This document shows, in pieces, positions 32,633 through 44,963 of a stretch of 64,000 nucleotides of DNA (positions are counted from its first letter, which is position 1; every line of letters starts with the position of its first letter). This stretch comes from Methylobacterium sp. (GTDB taxonomy: Bacteria; Pseudomonadota; Alphaproteobacteria; Rhizobiales; Beijerinckiaceae): NCBI GenBank assembly GCA_020253445.1, contig JADCBP010000003.1, positions 1 through 64,000 of the forward strand. Direction: 5' to 3'. The position numbers and the translations under genes are program-made. Below the pieces are notes generated by a model. The model did no database searches, was not told the DNA's origin, and saw only the letters and a list, made by a program, of their open reading frames with translations.

Positions 32633-33541
32633 TTACGAGCCCTTCTTGCGCAGCGAATCCACGAACTTCTGCAGATCCTCCGTCACCTTGTAGTCGGAAT
32701 GCTTCGCCGGTGCGAAGCCGGGCGACTTGCCATCCGTGAGGCGCTTGAAGGCGTCCGGCGCCTTGTTCGGCGCATCGAAGAAGGCCTTTGCGATCGCGGC
32801 CTTGAGGTCGGCTGGAAGGCTCGTCAGCACGGCATAGGGCGAACCGGGGATCTTCTCGGAGCGGAAGACGATCTTGAAATCGTCCTTCTTCACCATGCCC
32901 TTGTTCGCCATGCGCGAGAGGTTGGAATCCTCTTCTGAATTCCACCAGTTGAAGGCGAGATCGCAGGTGCCCTGCTGCACGGCCATCACCGCATTCTCGT
33001 GGCTTCCGGCATTCGTCACCTTGGCGAAGAACTTGGCCGGGTCGATGTTCATCTTGTGCATCTGGAAGAGCGGCACATTGTTGCCCGAGGTCGAGTTCGG
33101 ATCGACAAGGCAGAGGTTCTTGCCCTTGAAATCATCGAGCTTCGTGCCGGTGGCTTCCTTCTTGGCATAGGCGACCGCAAAGTACCCGGTCGAGCCATCC
33201 GCCGCGCGCATCGTGGCGAAGGCCTCGACGCCGCCATTCGAGACGGTGTGGGCGCGCACATAGGAAGACGGGCCGTAATCACCGATATGGATGGTGCCGG
33301 CACGCTGGCCCTCGATCACCGCCGCGTAATCCGCCGCGATGCGCAGCGTGACCTTCACGCCTAGTTCGCGCGAGAGATATTCCATGAAGGGACCGAAGCG
33401 CTCGGTCACGCCCGAGGCGTTCTCGGCGGGAACGGTGGCATAGACGATTTCGGGGTATTTGGCCTTCCAGTCCTGCGCGAAGGCGGGAGCGGCAAGGCTG
33501 ATCAAGGCGGCAACAAGCACCGCACGACGGGGAAGCGTCAT
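32633..33541 (-). CDS. phnD: PhnD, phosphonate-binding periplasmic protein
   Basis: 302 aa, with signal peptide (AVLVAALISLAAPAFAQ) and the PhnD fold: YATVPAENASGVTERFGPFM, EYLSRELGVKVTLRIAADYA, and the ligand-loop region CLVDPNSTSGNNVPLFQMHK. Binds phosphonates in the periplasm and delivers them to the PhnE/PhnC transporter. phnC lies 30 bases upstream. Confidence 0.94.
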   Translation of the reverse strand: MTLPRRAVLVAALISLAAPAFAQDWKAKYPEIVYATVPAENASGVTERFGPFMEYLSRELGVKVTLRIAADYAAVIEGQRAGTIHIGDYGPSSYVRAHTVSNGGVEAFATMRAADGSTGYFAVAYAKKEATGTKLDDFKGKNLCLVDPNSTSGNNVPLFQMHKMNIDPAKFFAKVTNAGSHENAVMAVQQGTCDLAFNWWNSEEDSNLSRMANKGMVKKDDFKIVFRSEKIPGSPYAVLTSLPADLKAAIAKAFFDAPNKAPDAFKRLTDGKSPGFAPAKHSDYKVTEDLQKFVDSLRKKGS

Positions 33542-33571: not shown

Positions 33572-34375
33572 TCAGGCGACGGCTGCCAGCCCGGGTAGAC
33601 GAGCGGGCACGGAAGGCGGAAGCACGTTCATCGCGTCCTCGGCCTCAAGGCCGTAGAGTTCGCGGGCGGTTGCCTCCGTGAGGGCCTCGGGCGCACCGTC
33701 GAACACGATGCGGCCCTGCGCCATGCCCACGAGGCGGTCGCAATAGTCCTTGGCGATGTCGAGATCGTGCAGGTTGCAGATCACGGTGATGCCGAAATGC
33801 CTGTTCAACCGCTGCAGCGCATCCATGACGATGCGGGTGTTGCGCGGGTCCAGCGAGGCGATAGGCTCGTCGGCGAGCACCAGTTCCGGCTCCTGCACGA
33901 GGGCGCGGGCAATCGCCACGCGCTGCTGCTGGCCGCCGGAGAGAGTTTCCGCCCTTTGCGCCGCGAGGTTCGCGATGTCGAACTGCTCCAAGGCCGAAAC
34001 AGCGAGCGCGCGGTCTTCCTCGGCCCAGAGCTTCAGCATCGAGCGGGCCATGGAGGTGGCATGCAACCGGCCCATCAGCACGTTCGTCAGCACATCGAGG
34101 CGTCCCACGATGTTGAATTGCTGGAAGATCATGGCGCAGGAGGTGCGCCAGCGGCGCAGATCGCGGCCCGCAAGCGCGGTCACCGGCAGGCCATTCCAGT
34201 AGATCTCGCCGGACGAAGGCTCCTGCAGGCGGTTGATCATGCGCAGAAGCGTCGATTTACCCGCGCCGGAGCGCCCGATCACGCCGACGAAGCTTCCCTT
34301 CGCAATCTGAAGCGACACGTCGTCCACCGCGCGCTTCTCTCCAAACCGCCGTGAAAGATTCCGGATCTCAAGCAT
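33572..34375 (-). CDS. phnC: PhnC, phosphonate ABC transporter ATPase
   Basis: 267 aa. Walker [22 protein letters not shown]-loop [20 protein letters not shown], signature [20 protein letters not shown], Walker [21 protein letters not shown]. First gene of the phn operon. ATG at 34375 is chosen (GCGAGG 8 bases upstream, normal family start); an in-frame start at 34408 would add 11 residues. Immediately upstream are an imperfect Pho-box-like array and then an IS6 deletion remnant, so the native promoter has at most about 130 bases. Confidence 0.93.
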
Positions 34376-34435
34376 CTCAATCCTCGCTCGAAGGGTGGCT
34401 GACCCCATCCGATAGAGAGGATGCGCAACAGTTCG

Positions 34436-34510: not shown

Positions 34511-34645
34511 GGGCACTGTCAGGGGAAAATCGGTTTGCCGCCGGTTCAAGGGCCACCCCGCCACAGCAGTTGCCGCTTGGCGTCAACTCTGCGCGGCCTG
34601 ATCCATTGCCGCGGCGGGGGACTTTCCGAGACCGACTGGTTTGTC
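34511..34645 (+). mobile_element. IS6 internal-deletion remnant (MITE-like)
   Basis: Starts with the IS6-type left end GGGCACTGTCAGGGGAAAAT and, after about 60 bases, jumps to the transposase end (AWRQLCAA-stop codons at about 34574-34603) and the conserved right flank GACTTTCCGAGAC, as seen at 765-825. The right terminal repeat itself is lost where the cytochrome gene ends. It separates the phn operon from the sulfite dehydrogenase operon. Confidence 0.65.
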
Positions 34646-35030
34646 ACTTGATCGGGATGCTCGCAGCCTTCGCTGCATCCAAAGTGGCCGTGGCTGGAAT
34701 TGCCCCGTGGTTGGACAGGAGGTACGCGACCACCGACAACTTCTGTTCATCCGTCAGCATTGCAGGATTGTTGAACGGCATCAGTTGCATGTAGTCGATC
34801 AGGCCTTGGGCGGTGCCGAATTTCGTGGCGATCAAGGAGCCCTCGCCCCAGATCGGGGTCTGGAAACCTTCGCCGCGCTTGCCATCGGCACCATGGCATA
34901 GCGCACAGGCCTCGGCATAAAGCGTCTTTCCTTCGGCAACCTGCTTCGACGGAGCCGCTGCCTGCAGCACGCCGGCAAACAGGATGGCAACTCCCGAAAC
35001 AAGCCCGATCAGTCCGAATGTTTTCTTCAT
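34644..35030 (-). CDS. Periplasmic class I cytochrome c, likely sulfite dehydrogenase partner
   Basis: 128 aa with signal peptide (GLIGLVSGVAILFAGVLQAA) and one heme c site (CALCH); probable Met ligand in YMQLMPFNNPAMLTDEQ. Follows the molybdopterin sulfite-dehydrogenase-like gene by 72 bases on the same strand. This order matches SorA-SorB type sulfite dehydrogenases, in which the heme subunit takes electrons from the molybdenum subunit. ATG at 35030 is chosen for the signal peptide. Confidence 0.82.
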   Translation of the reverse strand: MKKTFGLIGLVSGVAILFAGVLQAAAPSKQVAEGKTLYAEACALCHGADGKRGEGFQTPIWGEGSLIATKFGTAQGLIDYMQLMPFNNPAMLTDEQKLSVVAYLLSNHGAIPATATLDAAKAASIPIK

Positions 35031-35102
35031 TGGTCCACTATTTCGATCATGCTGATGAAGAATGGACGCACCCCATAGGAGTGCGTCCACCGGGAGAACG
35101 TG

Positions 35103-36485
35103 TCAGGCGACCTGGATCTTGAACTTCGGGATCGACCAGTTTGCCATGCCGAGGCTGTTCAGCGGAATCTTCTCCGGCTGGGACGTTCCGGCATGATCGG
35201 TGGTGCGCGTCTCGATCACATGCGTGCCAGCCGTGGCATCCCATGGGAAGTCGAACCGCACCCAAGTGTACTTTCCGAGGTTGGGCTGTCGCAGGGTGGC
35301 CATCTGCCAGGTGCCGCCATTCACGCGGTACTCGACATGCTTCACTCCGTGCTGGGGTGCCCAGGCATAGCCGCGCATTGTGTGCCGTCCGGCTGCCATT
35401 TTCGGCAATTCGCCCTTCTTCAGCGGATAATTGACGGGGATCGACGGCGATTGCTCGAGCACCAGAGGGACAGTGATCAGGGATTTGGGCGGCATCCAGG
35501 TCACCATCGGACCCTTGATATCCGCCGGCGTGATGCCGGGCAGGAACTCGTCATTCGCCGCATCGAATTCCGGCGCCTGATAATCCGGACCAAGGAACAC
35601 CTCGCCCTTGGTGTTGAGGCGCGTCCAGATGCGCTTGTCGGACACGCGGATCTCGGTCACCCATTTGATCGAAGCCGTGCCGCCCCAGCCCGGCACGACC
35701 ACGCGCACGGGCGCGCCGTGATCCGGAGTCAGCGGATTGCCATTCATGGCGTAGCAGATGCCCATATCGTGCTGCTGTGCGAGGACATCGGCGAATGGCA
35801 TCGGGCGGCCCATGTCATTGCCGTCTACACCCGACCAGAACAGGACTGTTCGCGCATTCGGCCTGATGCCGCAGCGGGCAAAAATCTCGGCCATCGAGAC
35901 ATACTGCCATTCGGCCTGTCCCACCGCACCAAGCACCCAGTTGCCACCGCCTACCTGCTGTCCGGTGAAGCCGCCCTGTTCCCAGAACAGGGTTCGACCA
36001 TTGCCATGGCATTCCATCGTCGCGATGATCGTCTTTGAAGGCATCTTGAGCAGATCTTCATAGCTGATCTCGAGCGGCCGCTCGACCGAAGAGCCATGGA
36101 TCTTCAGCTTCCAGTTCGCGCGATCAAGAACCGGCTTCTGGTCGACGGTTGGCGTCGGATAATGGTTGCGGACATAGAATTCCTCGACCGGGGTCATGAA
36201 GGTCGAGAAATTCCAGTAATTGCCCGAGCGCACCGTCGCGCCGATATTCAGGACGCGGCTGTCATCCTTGATCAGGATGCGGCGTGCCGGGGCTGCGGGA
36301 GCGGCGGGGGCGGCCGGCGCCGGCGCAGCAGGCGCCTGCTGCGCGCTCGCCTCCGAGCCGACCATCGCCGCCGCGCCGAAGGCGCTGGCGGCAACGAATA
36401 GACTCCGACGATCCATATTCGTCCCGTTTTTCAGGACGTCCTTCACAAGCGCTTCTGCCGCTGCGCGCTGACGTGTCTCCGACAT
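35103..36485 (-). CDS. Periplasmic sulfite dehydrogenase-like molybdoenzyme (SorA/SoxC family)
   Basis: 460 aa, sulfite-oxidase superfamily. A long Tat-type leader (MDRRSLFVAASAFGAAAMVG after a 23-residue extension) and an Ala/Pro-rich linker precede the Mo-cofactor domain, with the molybdenum-ligating Cys at position 159 (IIATMECHGNGR). The C-terminal dimerisation domain follows (RGYAWAPQHGVKHVEYRVNG; WVRFDFPWDATAGTHVIETR). It should oxidise sulfite to sulfate in the periplasm and reduce the cytochrome at 34644. GGAGGGG lies 5 bases before the ATG at 36485, deciding the long start. A sigma-54-type promoter lies 59 bases upstream, and the NtrC-type regulator gene is the next gene upstream. 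SoxC is an alternative name, but no other sox genes are present. Confidence 0.85.
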   Translation of the reverse strand: MSETRQRAAAEALVKDVLKNGTNMDRRSLFVAASAFGAAAMVGSEASAQQAPAAPAPAAPAAPAAPARRILIKDDSRVLNIGATVRSGNYWNFSTFMTPVEEFYVRNHYPTPTVDQKPVLDRANWKLKIHGSSVERPLEISYEDLLKMPSKTIIATMECHGNGRTLFWEQGGFTGQQVGGGNWVLGAVGQAEWQYVSMAEIFARCGIRPNARTVLFWSGVDGNDMGRPMPFADVLAQQHDMGICYAMNGNPLTPDHGAPVRVVVPGWGGTASIKWVTEIRVSDKRIWTRLNTKGEVFLGPDYQAPEFDAANDEFLPGITPADIKGPMVTWMPPKSLITVPLVLEQSPSIPVNYPLKKGELPKMAAGRHTMRGYAWAPQHGVKHVEYRVNGGTWQMATLRQPNLGKYTWVRFDFPWDATAGTHVIETRTTDHAGTSQPEKIPLNSLGMANWSIPKFKIQVA

Positions 36486-36543
36486 CGACTTCCCCTCCGA
36501 TCGTTCTGGTGAAGCGCTCTGGTTGGCGCCCGTTCGGAGGAGA

Positions 36544-36559
36544 TGCAGTCAGAGTGCCA
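36544..36559 (-). promoter_or_regulatory. Sigma-54 (-24/-12) promoter for the sulfite dehydrogenase operon
   Basis: Coding strand TGGCACTCTGACTGCA matches the sigma-54 consensus TGGCAC-N5-TTGCA, with the invariant GG and GC exactly 10 bases apart. The predicted start is about 45 bases before the ATG at 36485. A sigma-54 activator is encoded directly upstream. Confidence 0.75.
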
Positions 36560-36672
36560 TGGTGCTTTGCACAATCGGCCCCAAAAAATGCTGTTTTTTC
36601 AATGCTGATACAGTGGGCCCGTCCACGTTTTCGGATTGCGACAGGATGATCGGTCCGATTTTCCGGACTGGC

Positions 36673-38034
36673 TCAGCCCTCGTAGCGGATATCGAGCCGT
36701 CGGATCTTCTCGAACAGGGTTGATCGGGACACGTCGAGCCTCTGGGCGGCGAGAGTAACGTCCCCCTTGGTCAGCGCGAGCGCTGCCAGGATGGCGCGGC
36801 GTTCAGCGTTGTCGCGGCTCTGCTGGAGGGAAAGAACCGGGTCGGAGCTGTCGCCACGATGCACCTTCTCGGGAAAAAGATCGGCCGGACCAATCAGGTC
36901 AGTCTCGGCCAACGCAACCGCGCGCTCGATCCTATTGCGCAACTCGCGGATGTTCCCCGGATAATCATGGGCAAGGAGGGCATCCTCCGCGAGGAAGGAG
37001 AACTGCTTCTGGCCGGTGCCAAAACTTGAGCAGAACTCGCCCAGGAATCGGTTGGCCAACGCGAGGATGTCTTCCGGACGTGCACGCAATGCGGGAATGT
37101 CGACGACGATCACGGCCAGCCTGTAGTAGAGATCCTCGCGAAAGCGCCCATCCTTCACCCGCTGGGTCAGGTCGGCATTGGTCGCGGCAATGACCCGGGC
37201 CCGGAAGCTCGTCAGGCGGTCACCGCCGACACGCATGAATGTCCGCTCCTGCAGCAGTCGCAGAAGCTTGGCCTGCATGGTCTGGGGAAGATCGGCGACC
37301 TCATCGAGAAAGAGTATGCCATCACCCGCCTGCTCGGCATATCCGATCCGACGCGCCTGCGCGCCAGTGAACGCGCCTTTTTCGTGGCCGAAAATCTCGC
37401 TTTCCAGCAATTCTGCCGGTATGGCCGCGCAATTGATGGCCATGAAGGGCTGGGGGTGCCGCTGTCCCTTCGCATGCAGGAAGCGCGCGGCAACTTCCTT
37501 TCCGGCACCGCTTGGGCCAGTCAACAGCACGGTGGAATCAACCGTCGCCAGCCGTCGCAACTGACGCTCGACGATCGCGATGGCGGGAGAATTGCCGAGT
37601 TCGTAGCCCTCGGTCAGCGCCCAACGCGACGCGATGAGCTTTTCAATCCGCTGGAGCAGCGCATCGATTTCAAAGGGCTTGGTCATGTAATCGGCTGCCC
37701 CCGCCTTCATGAGGCGGACAGCCTGGTCAATCTCGCCAAATCCCGTTATGAAAAGGATAGGCGTGCCAAAGACTTGCGGCGCAATAACCTTGAAAATCTC
37801 TTCGCCCGTCAGGTCTGGCAGACGGATATCACAGAGGATCACATCAGGATCGGTATCACCGAGTTTCTGGATGGCATCGCGCCCCGTTCGGAACCACTCA
37901 GTCCGGTAGCCCTCGATATTGAACCACTCGATGAGGGACTGCCCCATCACAGGATCATCCTCGATGAGGACAACCAGCGGTCCGCGCCCCAGGATGGGAA
38001 GCCTAGGCCGCGGTTCGGAGATCTGGCTGAGCAT
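36673..38034 (-). CDS. NtrC-family sigma-54-dependent response regulator
   Basis: 453 aa. Receiver domain first (VVLIEDDPVMGQSLIEWF; phospho-acceptor Asp in VILCDIRLPDLTGEEIF), then AAA+ domain with Walker A LTGPSGAGKEVAARFLHAKG and the sigma-54-contacting GAFTGA loop (HEKGAFTGAQARRIG), Walker B DGILFLDEVADLPQ, and a Fis-type helix-turn-helix (LTKGDVTLAAQRLDVSRSTL). ATG at 38034 is chosen because it yields the receiver start; it overlaps the kinase gene by 32 bp. It probably activates the sigma-54 promoter at 36544 in response to the adjacent kinase and periplasmic sensor. Confidence 0.93.
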   Translation of the reverse strand: MLSQISEPRPRLPILGRGPLVVLIEDDPVMGQSLIEWFNIEGYRTEWFRTGRDAIQKLGDTDPDVILCDIRLPDLTGEEIFKVIAPQVFGTPILFITGFGEIDQAVRLMKAGAADYMTKPFEIDALLQRIEKLIASRWALTEGYELGNSPAIAIVERQLRRLATVDSTVLLTGPSGAGKEVAARFLHAKGQRHPQPFMAINCAAIPAELLESEIFGHEKGAFTGAQARRIGYAEQAGDGILFLDEVADLPQTMQAKLLRLLQERTFMRVGGDRLTSFRARVIAATNADLTQRVKDGRFREDLYYRLAVIVVDIPALRARPEDILALANRFLGEFCSSFGTGQKQFSFLAEDALLAHDYPGNIRELRNRIERAVALAETDLIGPADLFPEKVHRGDSSDPVLSLQQSRDNAERRAILAALALTKGDVTLAAQRLDVSRSTLFEKIRRLDIRYEG

Positions 38035-39439
38035 GAGGGATCCTGATGGTGATCGCGGTACCAGGTGGACCTTCGATGGAAATGGTGGCTCGCTGATCCG
38101 AGACAATCCGCGCGACGATCCACAAGCCAAGGCCGCCATTGGCATCATGCGCCGATGTCGCGCCCGCGGTAAGGAGCATCGCGCGTGAATCCGCAGGCAG
38201 CCCTGGCCCCTCGTCGGAGATATGCAGCACAGTCTGATCGCGATCGGAACGGACGCTGAAACAGACCCGGCCTCCCGGTGGCGAAGCCGCGCAGGCATTG
38301 AGCGCGAGATTGAGGGCCATCTGGCGGAACGGCTGGGCGGCGATGGAGGATTCGGTGCCAAGTTCGTTGAGCCATTCGAGCGTCAAATCGCGGCGCAACG
38401 CCTCGCTCTCGACCAGAAAGCGCAGATCTTCGATGTCGCTGGTTGTCAAGGTTTGATGATCCGTCTCGCCACGCCAGACAACCAGCGAGGCTCGGACAAT
38501 GTTGCGGATCCCGGTCAGGCCGCGTTCGAGCAGCGTCGCGGCACGATCGCGCCGCTCGGGATCATCACCATAGCGCTGGATCATCCGCACCGCGTTGAAC
38601 AAGCCGCCCAGCGGATTGTTGACCTCATGGGCGATGGCCGATGCGTACCGCCCGAGCAAGGCCCGACGTTCCTGATCGGCCAAACGGTGCAACAGGGCCT
38701 CCCGCTCGCTCACGGCGAGAGCCGCAGCATTGTAACGGCGATAGACCTTGCCAGCCTCGGTATCCGGAGGCGGAAGCTTGCTTTCTGGAATAGGTTCCAG
38801 CCGTCCATCGCCAGCACGGGCCAGATAGGTGGAAAGTCGGAGTAGGGGCCTCAGCGTACGGTGGACGACGAACCAGCCCAACCCGGCGAAAAGAAGTGTC
38901 AGCGCACCATTGACGCCAAGCAGGGTCCAGAACGTTTCCTGTCGGACCTGCTGGATTTTCGAGATGTCGATCTCAGCCGCAATCCTCCCGATCTCCTTGC
39001 CGCCCTCGCGCAAGGTCCTGTGGACCCAGACATGCCCGCCGGGATCACCGAGATCCGGCTCGCCGCGATCAGCGCGAGCTTTCTCCGGTGCCTTCAGGCC
39101 TACGGGATAGGTGGCCGGATCGAGGGCCGCCAGAACGGTCTCATTCGGCAGGATCACCAGGACAATTCGCGGGTTTACCCCGGAATATTTGTGGCGCGCG
39201 CGGTCGAGCACATCGAATGCCTCCCAAGGCTCCTGCCGGATGACCGGCGAATGGAGAGCCGTCGAGAGCCCGTCAAGGTAGGCTCCTGTCAGTTGCCTGA
39301 AGCTCTGGGCCTGGTCCCTCGCCAGCCGATCAAGGACAACCTTCGAAATTGCTGCTGCGATGCCGATCATCAGCAGGGCCACGACCAGCGGTGCCCGGAC
39401 GGCCAGCGGCCACCGTTGGGGGTGGAAAGCCGCGATCAT
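38003..39439 (-). CDS. Membrane sensor histidine kinase
   Basis: 478 aa. Two membrane segments (about residues 15-40 and 165-185) flank a periplasmic domain, followed by a HAMP-like linker (TLRPLLRLSTYLARAGDGRL), H-box with phospho-acceptor His (SAIAHEVNNPLGGLFNAVRM), and HATPase with N-box (ALNLALNACAASPPGGR) and G-boxes (ISDEGPGLPADSR; GGLGLWIVARIV). The start overlaps the periplasmic-binding-protein stop by 4 bp, and its end overlaps the regulator. The periplasmic loop probably receives the signal from that binding protein. Confidence 0.92.
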   Translation of the reverse strand: MIAAFHPQRWPLAVRAPLVVALLMIGIAAAISKVVLDRLARDQAQSFRQLTGAYLDGLSTALHSPVIRQEPWEAFDVLDRARHKYSGVNPRIVLVILPNETVLAALDPATYPVGLKAPEKARADRGEPDLGDPGGHVWVHRTLREGGKEIGRIAAEIDISKIQQVRQETFWTLLGVNGALTLLFAGLGWFVVHRTLRPLLRLSTYLARAGDGRLEPIPESKLPPPDTEAGKVYRRYNAAALAVSEREALLHRLADQERRALLGRYASAIAHEVNNPLGGLFNAVRMIQRYGDDPERRDRAATLLERGLTGIRNIVRASLVVWRGETDHQTLTTSDIEDLRFLVESEALRRDLTLEWLNELGTESSIAAQPFRQMALNLALNACAASPPGGRVCFSVRSDRDQTVLHISDEGPGLPADSRAMLLTAGATSAHDANGGLGLWIVARIVSDQRATISIEGPPGTAITIRIPHAQPDLRTAA

Positions 39440-40314
39440 CCCAGTTCCTGAACCCGCTTCCAATGTTCGGCGATACTGTCAAACAGGCTGGATTCACCCG
39501 CGACAAAACCGTCGAGCCGCAACATGCTGAGAATTGCCCGGCCGTTCGGATCATCCGGCATGCTGATCAAAGCCGCAGCAATTGCACTCCGCAAAACAGG
39601 GTCCACCCCGCGCGCCGCCGCAACCGGCGGGAAGCCCATGGGGTCGGAAATGTGCTGGATGCGCGTCCCCAAAACCAGCGCAGGTTCGATCTCGCGCATG
39701 ACATCCCAGACATAGCCGTCCACAGATCCCGAATGTGCAAGCCCGGAGGCCACCGCGCGGATCACGTTCCGATGCCCGAAGGTGAAAAAGGTCCGGGCAA
39801 AGAAAGTCGAAGGACTTTCGCGCAAGCCTGCCAGCAAGGACCGCGTCGCCAGAAAACCCGAATTGCTGTCGGGGTCCGAGAAGGCGTGAATGTCGCCGCG
39901 CAAGGCATGGATGGTCTCGCTCTCCCGCCCGGCCCGCGTGACGATGTAGGCCCGGTACAGGGGCGCGCGCCTGTAAAGCGGAACCGCAACCAGCCTGAGA
40001 TGCTCCCGGTTCTGAACAAACGGAAAGCCGCAGATCCACGCGGCATCAAGCTGGTTGGCGACCAGAAGCGACGTGATTTCCTGATAGGTCCGGCGCTTCA
40101 CCAGTTGGACAGGCCGCCCGATATGGCGCGACAGATAGCGCTCGAGATCAGCAATCAGCTGGATGTCCGAGTCCAAGAATACAGGGGTCAGACCAAAGAG
40201 TACCGGCCGCGCCGCGCGAACGATCGTCGGGAATTTCAAGGCAGCGGTTGCAAGTCCTCCGGCGAGGATATGACGGCGGGACGCGTCTTTTGGCCGGGCC
40301 TTTGCTGACAGCAT
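39436..40314 (-). CDS. PhnD/AioX-like periplasmic binding protein, putative ligand sensor
   Basis: 292 aa. Twin-arginine-type leader (SRRHILAGGLATAAL) followed by a PhnD-superfamily fold (LFGLTPVFLDSDIQLIADLE; VANQLDAAWICGFPFVQNRE; FSDPDSNSGFLATRSLLAGL). It lacks any transporter gene beside it and is translationally coupled to a histidine kinase and an NtrC-type regulator. That is the arrangement of AioX-AioS-AioR, where a PhnD-like protein binds arsenite in the periplasm and triggers the kinase. A Cys at residue 95 (AWICGFPF) could bind a thiophilic oxyanion. The neighbouring target suggests sulfite or a related oxyanion as ligand; this is inference. Confidence 0.8.
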   Translation of the reverse strand: MLSAKARPKDASRRHILAGGLATAALKFPTIVRAARPVLFGLTPVFLDSDIQLIADLERYLSRHIGRPVQLVKRRTYQEITSLLVANQLDAAWICGFPFVQNREHLRLVAVPLYRRAPLYRAYIVTRAGRESETIHALRGDIHAFSDPDSNSGFLATRSLLAGLRESPSTFFARTFFTFGHRNVIRAVASGLAHSGSVDGYVWDVMREIEPALVLGTRIQHISDPMGFPPVAAARGVDPVLRSAIAAALISMPDDPNGRAILSMLRLDGFVAGESSLFDSIAEHWKRVQELG

Positions 40315-40563
40315 GGAACCCTCCCCTGATGCCCCGTCTTTCGCGTGGCTTTTCGCAAACTGATCGAGAATTCATCGGCGATCAAGCGGTCGGGCGCTGT
40401 CAGATCAAAAATCGGCTTGCCTCCGGGATGGGCGTGGTTACCCTCGATGGCATGAGCGACGCCCGCCCGCTTTGGCTGGCGATGACCATGGGGCTCATGG
40501 GTAGCAGTGTGCCGAAACGATGAGCCGCGACCCAATTGCCATTCGGCCATGGAGGAGATGATT
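40315..40563. mobile_element. Intergenic region with an IS6-end-like scar
   Basis: 249 bases between the divergent sensor operon and dehalogenase. At 40392-40422 it reads GGGCGCTGTCAGATCAAAAA then TCGGCTTGCC, close to the left end at 34511. No transposase sequence follows. The sensor operon promoter and dehalogenase promoter must lie here. Confidence 0.4.
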
Positions 40564-41472
40564 GTGGACTTCTTGCGAACTCCCGATGCGCGCTTTGCCA
40601 CCTTGCCGGGCTTTGACTATCGGCCCGACTATGTCAGCGACCTGCCCGGCTATGAAGGATTGCGCGCGGCCGTGATTGATGAAGGCCCTGCCGATGCAGC
40701 CCATGTCTTCCTATGCCTGCATGGTCAACCCACTTGGAGCTATCTCTATCGCAAGATGATCCCGGCGTTTCTGGCCAGCGGTGCGCGTGTGGTAGCCCCT
40801 GATCTTTTTGGCTTTGGCCGGTCTGACAAGCCGATGGGAGAAGAAATCTATGGATTTGACTTTCATCGCCAATTCCTGATCAGGCTGATCGAACGGCTGG
40901 ACTTAAGGAATATCACTTTGGTGGTCCAAGATTGGGGCGGGCTGTTGGGGCTGACGCTGCCCATCCATGCCGGCATGGCTCAACGCATTGAACGCCTGCT
41001 GATCATGAACACCACTTTGGCCACTGGCCACCCGCCCAGTGCGGGTTTTCTGGCTTGGCGGGCCTTTGCCGGGGCGCGACCTGATCTGGATATTGGCGCG
41101 CTCCTCAAGCGATCGGCCCCACATCTCACGCCTGAAGAGATCGCCGCTTATGAAGCCCCCTTCCCCGACCAAACCTACAAGGCTGGCGTCAGGGCTTTTC
41201 CCAAGCGGGTGATGACGGAACCTGGCATGGAAGGTGTTGACGTGTCGCTCGCAGCGCGGACCTTTTGGGCCGAGCAGTGGCGGGGTAAGAGCTTCATGGC
41301 ATGGGGTGCGGCTGATCCGGTCTTCGGGCGAGATGTCATGGAGGATATGCATAAACTCATCCACGGCTGCCCGGCTCCGCTGATCATCCACGAAGGCGGC
41401 CATTTCGTGCAGGAATGGGGCCACGACATTGCGACCGCAGCGCTGAGCTACTTTGAGCGGACGAAAGATTAG
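40564..41472 (+). CDS. Haloalkane dehalogenase, subfamily I
   Basis: 302 aa, alpha/beta hydrolase. Catalytic triad as in DhlA-type enzymes: nucleophile Asp123 in VVQDWGG, acid Asp251 in WGAADPVFG, base His280 in GGHFVQEWG. Halide-stabilising tryptophans are probably Trp124 and Trp165 (FLAWRAF). It hydrolyses a C-halogen bond to an alcohol and halide without cofactor. The oxyanion-region motif is HGQPTW where HGEPTW is usual. GTG at 40564 is preferred: it gives the family start MDFLRTPDARFATLP, and GGAGGAG sits 6-7 bases upstream; ATG codons at 40549 and 40558 are alternatives. It lies alone between IS remnants, suggesting acquisition by transfer. Confidence 0.85.
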   Translation: MDFLRTPDARFATLPGFDYRPDYVSDLPGYEGLRAAVIDEGPADAAHVFLCLHGQPTWSYLYRKMIPAFLASGARVVAPDLFGFGRSDKPMGEEIYGFDFHRQFLIRLIERLDLRNITLVVQDWGGLLGLTLPIHAGMAQRIERLLIMNTTLATGHPPSAGFLAWRAFAGARPDLDIGALLKRSAPHLTPEEIAAYEAPFPDQTYKAGVRAFPKRVMTEPGMEGVDVSLAARTFWAEQWRGKSFMAWGAADPVFGRDVMEDMHKLIHGCPAPLIIHEGGHFVQEWGHDIATAALSYFERTKD

Positions 41473-42839: not shown

Positions 42840-42863
42840 CCCAGAAGATCGTTGGAGGTTCCT

Positions 42864-44963
42864 ATGTCGACGCGCCGTGATTTCGTCCAGGCACTGCCTG
42901 CCTTGGGAGCAGCCTTCGCAGTCGGTTCAAGCATAACTCTGAACGAAAGTTCGGCACAGACCATGCCGTCGCCGCTCAGTGGCCACTTTCATCCCAAAGG
43001 CAAGGCGCCGACGAGCCACACCATTGCGGCGATCAAGCGCTCTTCCGCCAATCTCCCCTTTGCCGATGCGCGCGATTTCGAGGAGTTGAGGAAGGGCTTC
43101 ATCGCGCCGATGCCGGATCTCGTCATCAAGGCCGATGCGGGCCATGACGCCGTCGACATGAAGCGCTTCCAGTTCCTGAACGAGAACAGGGAATTCGACA
43201 GCATTCATCCCTCGATGCTGCGCATCGCCAGGCTGAACAACAACTATGGCCTCTACGAGGTCATGCCCGGCATCTACCAGGTGCGCGGCGTGGATCTCTC
43301 CGATATCACCTTCGTGCGCGGCAAGACCGGCTGGATCGTCTTCGATCCGCTCGTCTCCGCTGAAGCGACGCGCGCTGCGACGAAACTGTTCCAGGAGAAG
43401 GTCGGCGAGGGCCGACCGATCAAGGCGGTCATCTATTCCCACACTCATGGCGACCACTGGGGAGGCGTGCGAGGCCTCGACCTGAAAGATGAGGACGTGG
43501 CGTCCGGCAAGGTGCAGATCATCGCGCCGGTCGACTTCATGGAGTTCACGGTCGCCGAGAACGTGTTCGCCGGCAACGCCATGAACCGGCGGCTGTTCTA
43601 TCAATACGGCATGCTGCTGCCGGTATCGGCGCATGGCTTCGTCACGCAGGGGCTGGGGCACAAGATCTCCGCCGGACAGACCGGCCTCATCGCGCCGACG
43701 CGCCTCGTCTCCGAGCCCATCGAGGAGTTTGAGGTCGACGGCGTGCGGATGATCTTCCAGAACACGCCGAACACCGAAGCGCCGCGCGAGATGAACACCT
43801 ACTTCCCGGACATGAAGGCCCTGTGGATGGCCGAGAATGTGTCGGCGACCCTGCACAACATCTACACGCTGCGCGGCGCGCAGGTGCGCGACGCGTTGCG
43901 CTGGTCGAAATACCTCAATGAGGCATTGCATCGCTTCGGCAAGGAAGCCGAGGTCATGTTCACCGCGCACCATTGGCCTCGCTGGGGCAATGCGCGCATC
44001 CAGGAGATCCTGCGCGACCAGCGCGACCTCTATGCGCATATGAACAACCAGGTTCTGCATCTCGCCAACCAGGGTGTCACCATCAACCAAATCCACAATG
44101 TCTACCGGCTGCCGGGTTCGATCCTGCAGAAATGGCATTGCCGCGGCTATCACGGCTCGCCCGAGCATAACGCGCGCGGTGTCGTCCAGCGGTTCCTGGG
44201 CTTCTGGGACTGCAACCCGGCGACGCTCGTGCCGCTTTCGCCGGAGGAATCGGCTCCGCTCTATGTGGAGATGATGGGCGGTTCGGCGAAGATCATCGCT
44301 CGCGGACAGGAATTGTTCAACGAGGGCAAGTATCTGCTGGCGATGGAGATCATGAACAAGCTGGTGCAGGCCGAGCCGCAGAACCAGGCCGCGAAGGATC
44401 TTCTCGCCGACATCTTCGAGCAGCTGGGCTATCAGCAGGAGAACCCGGGGATTCGCAACAGCTACCTCTCGGGCGCCTACGAACTGCGCTCCGGCATCCC
44501 GCAGGGCGAGACGGCGAGTTCCAGCAGCCCCGACGTCATCAGGGCCATGTCGACCGAGCTGTTCCTCAACTTCCTCGGCATCAAGATGGACAGCCGCAAG
44601 GCGGAGGGGTTGCGCTTCGCCATCAACCTCGTCACGCCGGACAATGGCGAGAAGTTCCTGATCGAACTCGAAAACGCCACGCTCACCAACATCGCCGGCT
44701 TCCAGGCCGAGAAGCCGGACCTCACTCTCACCATCAACCGCTCCGAGCTCGAACTCACGATGATGGGCGTCAAGAAGCTTGAGGATCAACTGAAGGACGG
44801 AACCGCCAAAGCGGTAGGGGACGTGAGCATCCTCGGCAAGCTGGCGGCAACCATGGTGGAGTTCGATCCGCGCTTCGAAGTGATGCCAGGCACAAAAGCC
44901 CGGACGGCAAAGGTTGCATCCGATGCCTACGAAGCGGAGATCGGCGCAGTTATTCCGGAGTAG
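42864..44963 (+). CDS. Alkylsulfatase, metallo-beta-lactamase type (SdsA1/BDS1 family)
   Basis: 699 aa. Tat-like leader (STRRDFVQALPALGAAFAVG) predicts periplasmic export. The zinc motif SHTHGDHWGG (HxHxDH) about 195 residues in identifies the metallo-hydrolase domain; TAHHWPRWGN and the dimerisation domain follow, and the C-terminal about 130 residues form an SCP2-like domain (INLVTPDNGEKFLIELENAT; PDLTLTINRSELELTMMGVK). It hydrolyses primary or secondary alkyl sulfates (SDS-like) to alcohol and sulfate. GGAGG lies 6 bases before ATG 42864. An inverted-repeat hairpin follows the stop at 44984-45005. Tandem with the beta-barrel gene. Confidence 0.9.
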   Translation: MSTRRDFVQALPALGAAFAVGSSITLNESSAQTMPSPLSGHFHPKGKAPTSHTIAAIKRSSANLPFADARDFEELRKGFIAPMPDLVIKADAGHDAVDMKRFQFLNENREFDSIHPSMLRIARLNNNYGLYEVMPGIYQVRGVDLSDITFVRGKTGWIVFDPLVSAEATRAATKLFQEKVGEGRPIKAVIYSHTHGDHWGGVRGLDLKDEDVASGKVQIIAPVDFMEFTVAENVFAGNAMNRRLFYQYGMLLPVSAHGFVTQGLGHKISAGQTGLIAPTRLVSEPIEEFEVDGVRMIFQNTPNTEAPREMNTYFPDMKALWMAENVSATLHNIYTLRGAQVRDALRWSKYLNEALHRFGKEAEVMFTAHHWPRWGNARIQEILRDQRDLYAHMNNQVLHLANQGVTINQIHNVYRLPGSILQKWHCRGYHGSPEHNARGVVQRFLGFWDCNPATLVPLSPEESAPLYVEMMGGSAKIIARGQELFNEGKYLLAMEIMNKLVQAEPQNQAAKDLLADIFEQLGYQQENPGIRNSYLSGAYELRSGIPQGETASSSSPDVIRAMSTELFLNFLGIKMDSRKAEGLRFAINLVTPDNGEKFLIELENATLTNIAGFQAEKPDLTLTINRSELELTMMGVKKLEDQLKDGTAKAVGDVSILGKLAATMVEFDPRFEVMPGTKARTAKVASDAYEAEIGAVIPE

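Follow-up and report, generated by a model that had tools for sequence, protein, structure and literature searches.

We analysed the first 64,000 nucleotides (positions 1 to 64,000, hereafter the window) of contig JADCBP010000003.1 from the genome of Methylobacterium sp. (GCA_020253445.1), which contain five genes on one strand (minus) arranged, in the order of transcription, as an AioX-like sensor, a kinase, a regulator, a molybdoenzyme (MO) and a cytochrome c. The genes and the regulatory sites predicted between them are the following:

39436..40314, minus: aioX-like periplasmic binding protein of 292 amino acids, with a twin-arginine N-terminus (SRRHILAGG) recognised by eye and Cys95 within WICGFPF.
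38003..39463, minus: aioS-like sensor histidine kinase of 486 amino acids, with two transmembrane segments recognised by eye.
36673..38034, minus: aioR-like NtrC-type regulator of 453 amino acids, with a receiver, a sigma-54 AAA+ domain with GAFTGA and a Fis-type helix-turn-helix (HTH).
36653..36668, minus: upstream box 1, GTCCGGAAAATCGGAC, 10/10 to GTCCG-N6-CGGAC, a predicted regulator site.
36621..36636, minus: upstream box 2, ATCCGAAAACGTGGAC, 8/10 to GTCCG-N6-CGGAC, 32 bp from box 1.
36544..36559, minus: predicted sigma-54 promoter, TGGCACTCTGACTGCA, 9/10, 58 bp ahead of the MO start.
35103..36485, minus: MO, a sulfite-oxidase-family molybdoenzyme of 460 amino acids, with a twin-arginine signal recognised by eye and Cys159 as predicted Mo ligand.
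34644..35030, minus: monohaem cytochrome c of 128 amino acids from ATG (the open reading frame (ORF) as listed begins at 35090 with GTG), with one CALCH haem site and a Sec-type signal recognised by eye.

The kinase gene overlaps the sensor gene by 28 bp and is itself overlapped by the regulator gene by 32 bp, while the 187 bp separating the regulator gene from that of MO contain both boxes and the -24/-12 site. The family assignments of the five genes agree with Pfam and NCBIfam, so that the trio of sensor, kinase and NtrC-type regulator with overlapping gene ends, as given in a preliminary description of this DNA, is confirmed. In relatives, too, an aioS-like kinase gene lies beside the sensor gene.

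The sensor provided the clearest clue to the biology of this system. Compared by sequence with the PDB, it is closest to AioX (6esv, 6esk and 8ed5, with E-values from 1.3e-82, for 6esv, to 1.2e-78), followed by ArrX (6e-39) and, far more weakly, by HtxB (~3e-7) and a phosphonate binder (3.5e-6). Sensing of phosphonate or phosphite, hinted at by a phosphonate operon next door, was considered and rejected: the sensor reaches only 54.6 bits with the PhnD model, against a cut-off of 261.1 that the product of a neighbouring gene (33541-32633) does pass (312.8 bits). According to the available sections of the description of AioX (Badilla et al. 2018, PMC5908839), arsenite is linked to Cys106, a Val56-Phe57-Leu58 loop closes on the ligand, and the residues holding it are Y88, C106, Y131, S161, N162, S163, H192, D210, Y212 and P240. 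All ten have counterparts in the window sensor (Y77, C95, Y120, S150, N151, S152, H181, D199, Y201 and P229), and the Val-Phe-Leu loop is also present, each position being shifted by 11, with Cys95 corresponding to Cys106. The earlier suggestions that Cys95 lies in a plausible pocket and that the trio resembles AioX-AioS-AioR were therefore well founded. Moreover, the ten pocket residues are invariant in all 79 sensors that we compared, 25/25 linked to MO and 54/54 linked to AioBA, and the loop differs in a single AioBA-linked sensor, where Phe46 is replaced by Cys. Outside the pocket, two alignment columns divide MO-linked from AioBA-linked sensors at >80% each. The identity of the pocket makes arsenite very likely to be the ligand of this sensor. 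In one relative (L005:10001-10874; L numbers designate loci), the sensor gene is split over two frames (residues 1-236 and 235-292) by a frameshift in that assembly.

A scan of GTDB genome contigs retrieved 433 relatives of the sensor, of which the best 80 were kept for locus counts, and partners were called by tblastn in the DNA around the sensor (AioA at >40% identity, MO at >60% identity). Among these best 80 loci, AioA was found in 53, MO in 20, both in none and neither in 7. In six of the genomes with neither, an AioA scores above the cut-off at another location, in one case weakly (405 vs 359 bits); the remaining one, without AioA, is that of L020, which ends 1.5 kb past the sensor. Additional searches yielded six further MO loci (L142, L143, L152-L155). 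AioA (TIGR02693) was found in 0/27 MO genomes, namely the window's own, 19 others and 7 more in which there was no match at E 1e-50. Completeness was 100% for the window's own genome and for G783, 99% for G614, and 99, 100, 99 and 83% for four genomes of the same genus matched to L002-L005; for the other MO genomes completeness is not given, so that an AioA might have been missed in a draft. In the window's own genome, where the ArxA and ArrA families were not part of the search, no AioA exceeded the cut-off and six weak matches reached at best 86 bits. A hidden AioA was considered here and rejected, as one of the two strongest AioA-like frames is a formate dehydrogenase above its cut-off and the second is nearest to formate dehydrogenase models, below their cut-offs.

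The same alternation was seen among 61 relatives. The sensor occurred in 15 of them, 5 with MO and without AioA, 9 with AioA and without MO, and 1 as a contig-end fragment with neither, while 2 more had AioA matches and no sensor. Both arrangements exist within the same genus, one genome of which uses AioBA. The operon is also present in Elioraea tepidiphila DSM 17972, Roseococcus suduntuyensis DSM 19979 and Roseomonas sp. MO-31. Among 398 genomes sampled from the phylum, only the window's own had MO; in a sample around a Roseomonas genome, 12/397 had it. In a sample of the order at E 1e-100, 5/397 genomes had MO-type matches, corresponding to the window's own genome, two MO at 78% and two of a distant form at ~50%. 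No plasmid-borne MO was detected at E 1e-60. MO occupies the place of AioBA at AioX loci, and the five genes may best be read as an arsenite-induced operon in which MO would, with good probability, stand in for AioBA as a predicted arsenite oxidase outside the dimethyl sulfoxide (DMSO) reductase family.

We reconstructed a maximum-likelihood tree of 86 sensors and labelled them according to the presence of an MO partner. The label requires four gains or losses, all four forced by starred branches. The main MO-linked clade comprises 20 sensors, including that of the window, and the other MO-linked sensors lie among AioBA-linked ones: those of L063 and L154 pair next to an AioBA-linked Neoroseomonas sensor, those of L142 and L143 are in an open fork with AioBA-linked Bosea sensors, and that of L051 is inside the Bosea group (97/54), its exact place being unsure. 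We infer that the most plausible reason for one sensor type to accompany either enzyme is a substrate common to the two, and oxidation of arsenite by MO appears, on this reasoning, likely. Alternatively, the trio might sense arsenite while MO acts on a co-occurring compound, such as thioarsenate, antimonite or sulfite freed under arsenic stress. The sensor and promoter evidence would be unaffected by such a scenario, the substrate of MO being deduced from the logic of replacement, and the set of Mo-site residues in MO is indeed sulfite-oxidase-like. However, an enzyme complementing AioBA should at times be found beside it, whereas MO never was (0/80 loci and 0/27 MO genomes), and the sensor tree implies several changes of partner. 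We consequently consider a substrate other than arsenite for an arsenite-induced MO to be unlikely. One MO locus, L012, is filed as belonging to a Bacteroidetes metagenome-assembled genome (MAG), but in the trees its sensor and MO fall among sequences from Acetobacteraceae and Roseomonas, and the contig is probably mis-binned.

The preliminary description had assigned a sigma-54 promoter to the operon of the molybdoenzyme. This consensus match, TGGCACTCTGACTGCA, is the sole exact occurrence of TGGCACN6TGCW in the window, where 10 matches were found with one mismatch allowed (8.1 expected by chance). It is the recurrence upstream of the same gene that lifts the site above chance, and thereby supports the earlier observation: a -24/-12 site (8-10 of 10) precedes MO in 23/27 loci, at 49-65 bp from the assumed MO start in 21 of them; in L155 this distance is 38 bp, in L063 it is 11 bp. 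Shuffles of single loci reached the score of the site in 0 to 42 of 500 cases. The same 23/27 loci have two GTCCG-N6-CGGAC boxes (8-10 of 10) at 31-32 bp from each other. Two boxes are not rare in shuffled single loci (2 to 60 of 300), so that what counts is their fixed place across many loci, although, as many MO loci are closely related, the 23 do not represent 23 independent cases. The four loci without these sites are L051, L142, L143 and L153, in none of which MO is accompanied by a regulator whose sigma-54 domain is intact. The regulator of L051 (L051:3048-4382) has a degenerate GAFTGA; that of L143 (L143:8249-8899) has lost its AAA+ domain and retains the receiver and the Fis HTH; and that of L142 (L142:11411-11932) consists of the receiver only, without AAA+ domain. 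No sigma-54 site was detected ahead of MO in any of these three loci, whose sensors lie towards Bosea in the tree. L153 has neither sigma-54 site nor boxes before MO and no trio beside it. These exceptions make sense, since sigma-54 features of the regulator have been lost in three of them and the trio is absent from the fourth. The regulators of L007 and L152 read GAFTHA, and the sites there are still perfect. Judging from these sequence patterns, we regard control of the MO operon by the trio through sigma-54 as highly probable.

We then examined MO itself, aligning the window protein with the top 120 among 410 relatives from the database (121 rows). The source names of the database relatives include Burkholderiales, outside the Alphaproteobacteria. 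The preliminary description had called it a sulfite-dehydrogenase-like molybdoenzyme accompanied by a cytochrome c. The sulfite-oxidase family and the cytochrome c were both retrieved, and MO has the sulfite-oxidase fold according to an AlphaFold2 (AF2) model used for the fold only (pLDDT 72.7, with residues 29-108 under 50), for which the best Foldseek matches were SorA (6e-26) and SorT (1e-25). Nevertheless, its scores are far below the curated cut-offs for SoxC (158.7 vs 420 bits), SorT (155 vs 570) and SorA (145.4 vs 600), so that the name sulfite dehydrogenase overstates its identity. MO groups with three distant relatives in a clade (100/100) that excludes 16 other members of the family. 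It has invariant motifs of its own (RNHY, CHGN.R.LFWE and WSG.DG.D.GRP), and Thr292 and Glu295 are found in 121/121 rows. Judging from its sequence, MO is a distinct enzyme type.

Genes related to arsenic were searched around MO and AioA by tblastn with five query proteins (40% or more over 85 residues) taken from L002, L011 and L051, loci which match themselves. At least one of these genes lies near MO in 8/26 relative loci and near AioA in 19/53. An ArsR-ArsC fusion, an ArsJ-associated GAPDH and ArsJ are encoded beside five MO loci (L002, L003, L004, L016 and L019), with ArsJ and its GAPDH above the NCBIfam cut-offs in L002, L016 and L019 and as 91-94% matches in L003 and L004. ACR3 is above its cut-off in L011 and L019, L007 has an ACR3-like fragment, and L051 encodes an ArsP-family permease and a small thioredoxin. 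In the GAPDH-ArsJ route, arsenate is exported as 1-arseno-3-phosphoglycerate. This route would suit as an outlet for arsenate formed by an arsenite oxidase. GAPDH-ArsJ is described as conferring resistance to arsenate (Chen et al. 2016, cited in PMC6620896, in its available part).

Several observations weigh against MO being an arsenite oxidase under AioX control. To begin with, the Cys that serves as Mo ligand in sulfite oxidases and the Arg residues of these enzymes are conserved in MO. Cys159, in a C-x-G-N-type motif, is present in 120/121 MO rows and aligns with SorA Cys104 and with the SorT Cys, while Arg106 and Arg164, in 121/121 rows, align with SorA Arg55 and Arg109 (SorA residues counted on the printed chain). 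A Tyr located 21-22 residues after a conserved Lys is found in 17/17 other members of the family, mostly uncharacterised proteins; the conserved active-site Tyr of the family is Y343 in the human enzyme and Y236 in SorA. None of the 121 MO rows has a Tyr at +21-22, but there is one at +23 in 105/121 and a Phe in 16, including the window. Given the Tyr one residue further, the lack of a Tyr at the usual place is weaker evidence against sulfite than it first seemed; the Tyr-bearing stretch of MO is, as far as the alignment indicates, remodelled, with the loss of the Tyr not proven. The genomic context also contributes to this side of the balance. The searched arsenic genes (only the five-protein set was queried) were not found in the window or in 18/26 relative MO loci, and when the loci that provided the queries are left out, the positives decrease to 5/23. 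The window's own genome has no ArsJ, its other arsenic genes not having been searched. In L142 (L142:4161-8160), genes for a flavocytochrome c sulfide dehydrogenase, a SoxY-related protein, SoxZ and SoxA are oriented towards the MO operon (convergent) and separated from it by an IS5-type transposase. An enhancer shared with aioBA was looked for at the 53 AioA loci and not found as a general feature, an exact GTCCG box lying within 400 bp after the regulator in only 2/53. L153 (7872-9813) encodes MO and cytochrome c with no AioX-S-R in 14.3 kb, a pair that may be controlled in some other way or may be a relic. Finally, three distant MO relatives (47-49%) of family f2 in the same order (L144:9665-11080, L145:11432-12775 and L146:7704-9143) have neither AioX-S-R nor any searched arsenic gene nearby; these three and three loci of the window's own genome make up six further loci in which none of the searched arsenic genes was found.

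Some of these observations would fit the proposal of the preliminary description that the sensor responds to sulfite, or to some other oxyanion of sulfur, and that MO is a sulfite dehydrogenase. The fold and family of MO, the occupation of the SorA positions by Cys159, Arg106 and Arg164, the Tyr close to its canonical place in most MO rows and the sox-type genes of L142 are all compatible with it, as is the pairing with a cytochrome c, comparable to that of SorT with SorU (PMC4760952, available part). Nevertheless, sulfite as signal and substrate is not supported, given a sensor pocket identical to that of AioBA-linked AioX and an MO that occupies the place of AioA and was never found together with it. 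The proposal is also weakened by the arsenic genes neighbouring MO in 8/26 loci, by MO scores that fall short of the SorA, SorT and SoxC cut-offs, and by the SoxC present elsewhere in the window's own genome (L147:8724-9995, on C15; 634.6 bits vs 420). Arsenite is thus the better-supported ligand and a likelier substrate than sulfite, and we consider the sulfite proposal improbable. A further SorA-like protein, below the cut-off, is encoded ~23 kb from SoxC on the same contig (L148). It could also be argued that MO acts on oxyanions or sulfoxides of the periplasm in general and that its linkage to AioX-S-R is a chance capture, in agreement with the MO relatives without the trio (L153 and the three at 47-49% identity). 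However, in 26/27 loci MO is adjacent to the trio, or to the part of it that is visible (most of these loci were found through the sensor), so that the linkage of trio and molybdoenzyme is conserved in other genomes, as the interpretation in the preliminary description requires; promoter and boxes recur in 23/27; and the sensor tree contains more than one association. Chance capture seems, therefore, very improbable.

If MO is an arsenite oxidase, the system would work as follows. Arsenite would bind Cys95 of the sensor, the kinase would phosphorylate the regulator, and the regulator would occupy the GTCCG-N6-CGGAC boxes, so that the trio would switch on MO and the cytochrome c, both predicted to be periplasmic, through sigma-54. 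MO would then transfer oxygen to As(III), giving arsenate, and the electrons would pass to the cytochrome c. Where GAPDH-ArsJ is encoded next door, the arsenate may exit as 1-arseno-3-phosphoglycerate.

Comparison with known systems, based on the available parts of the papers cited, delineates what would be new in this arrangement. The AioX-S-R/AioBA system of Rhizobium NT-26 shares with that of the window a sensor family with complete pocket, a kinase and an AtoC/NtrC-type regulator (PMC5908839, PMC6011840), as well as a sigma-54 promoter (in NT-26, TGGCACAACGATTGCA) before a molybdoenzyme operon containing a cytochrome c gene (PMC6011840). However, its output belongs to the DMSO reductase family, whereas that of the window is a sulfite-oxidase-family MO and not aioBA, and the enhancer GTCCG-N6-CGGAC predicted in the window was not found at most AioA loci. 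ArxXSR-ArxA and ArrXSR-ArrAB illustrate how one XSR module drives different arsenic molybdoenzymes (PMC5908839), although ArxA and ArrA are, unlike MO, members of the DMSO reductase family, as are all the arsenite-oxidation and arsenate-respiration enzymes named in the available text of PMC5908839. SorAB, SorTU and SoxCD have in common with MO the fold, the Mo-ligand Cys, the nearby Arg residues and an adjacent cytochrome c gene, but MO scores below their cut-offs, belongs to a separate clade and has a Tyr stretch otherwise spaced. Arsenite oxidation without Aio has been proposed for a SoeABC-like candidate in Thioalkalivibrio (Ahn et al. 2019, PMC6620896); this candidate differs in being cytoplasmic and of the DMSO reductase family and in coming from transcriptomes, and the available text of PMC6620896 mentions no AioX-type regulon for it. 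In the literature that we could cover, which left out most subscription papers and is therefore weak evidence of novelty, there was no arsenite oxidase of the sulfite-oxidase family and no such enzyme linked to AioX.

MO is predicted to be an arsenite oxidase unrelated to the usual kind, and probably an undescribed one. That it would be the first one outside the DMSO reductase family, that it replaced AioBA under AioX more than once and that it defines a group missed by aioA surveys is a combination that we hold to be fairly probable. If this were true, one sensor module would be wired to unrelated enzymes, and arsenite could be oxidised by a simple two-gene oxidase. As aioA is a widely used marker for arsenite oxidisers (PMC8527091, available part), a second family of molybdoenzymes with this activity would change the counts of these organisms.

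A phosphonate operon directly follows the cytochrome c gene on the minus strand (34408-27643) and encodes a PhnC-like ATPase (33572-34408), PhnD (32633-33541), two PhnE-like permeases, a PhnG-sized ORF, PhnH and PhnJ, with PhnC, PhnE and PhnG named by eye. Genes for PhnC and PhnD follow MO in L002, too, and the presence of phn genes in Aio or arsenic islands has been described (PMC3834237, available part). On the other side, a haloalkane dehalogenase-like protein (40507-41472, plus; 319 bits vs a cut-off of 265) is encoded divergently from the sensor gene, and an alkylsulfatase of the metallo-beta-lactamase type, 703 amino acids long, is encoded at 42852-44963 on the plus strand.

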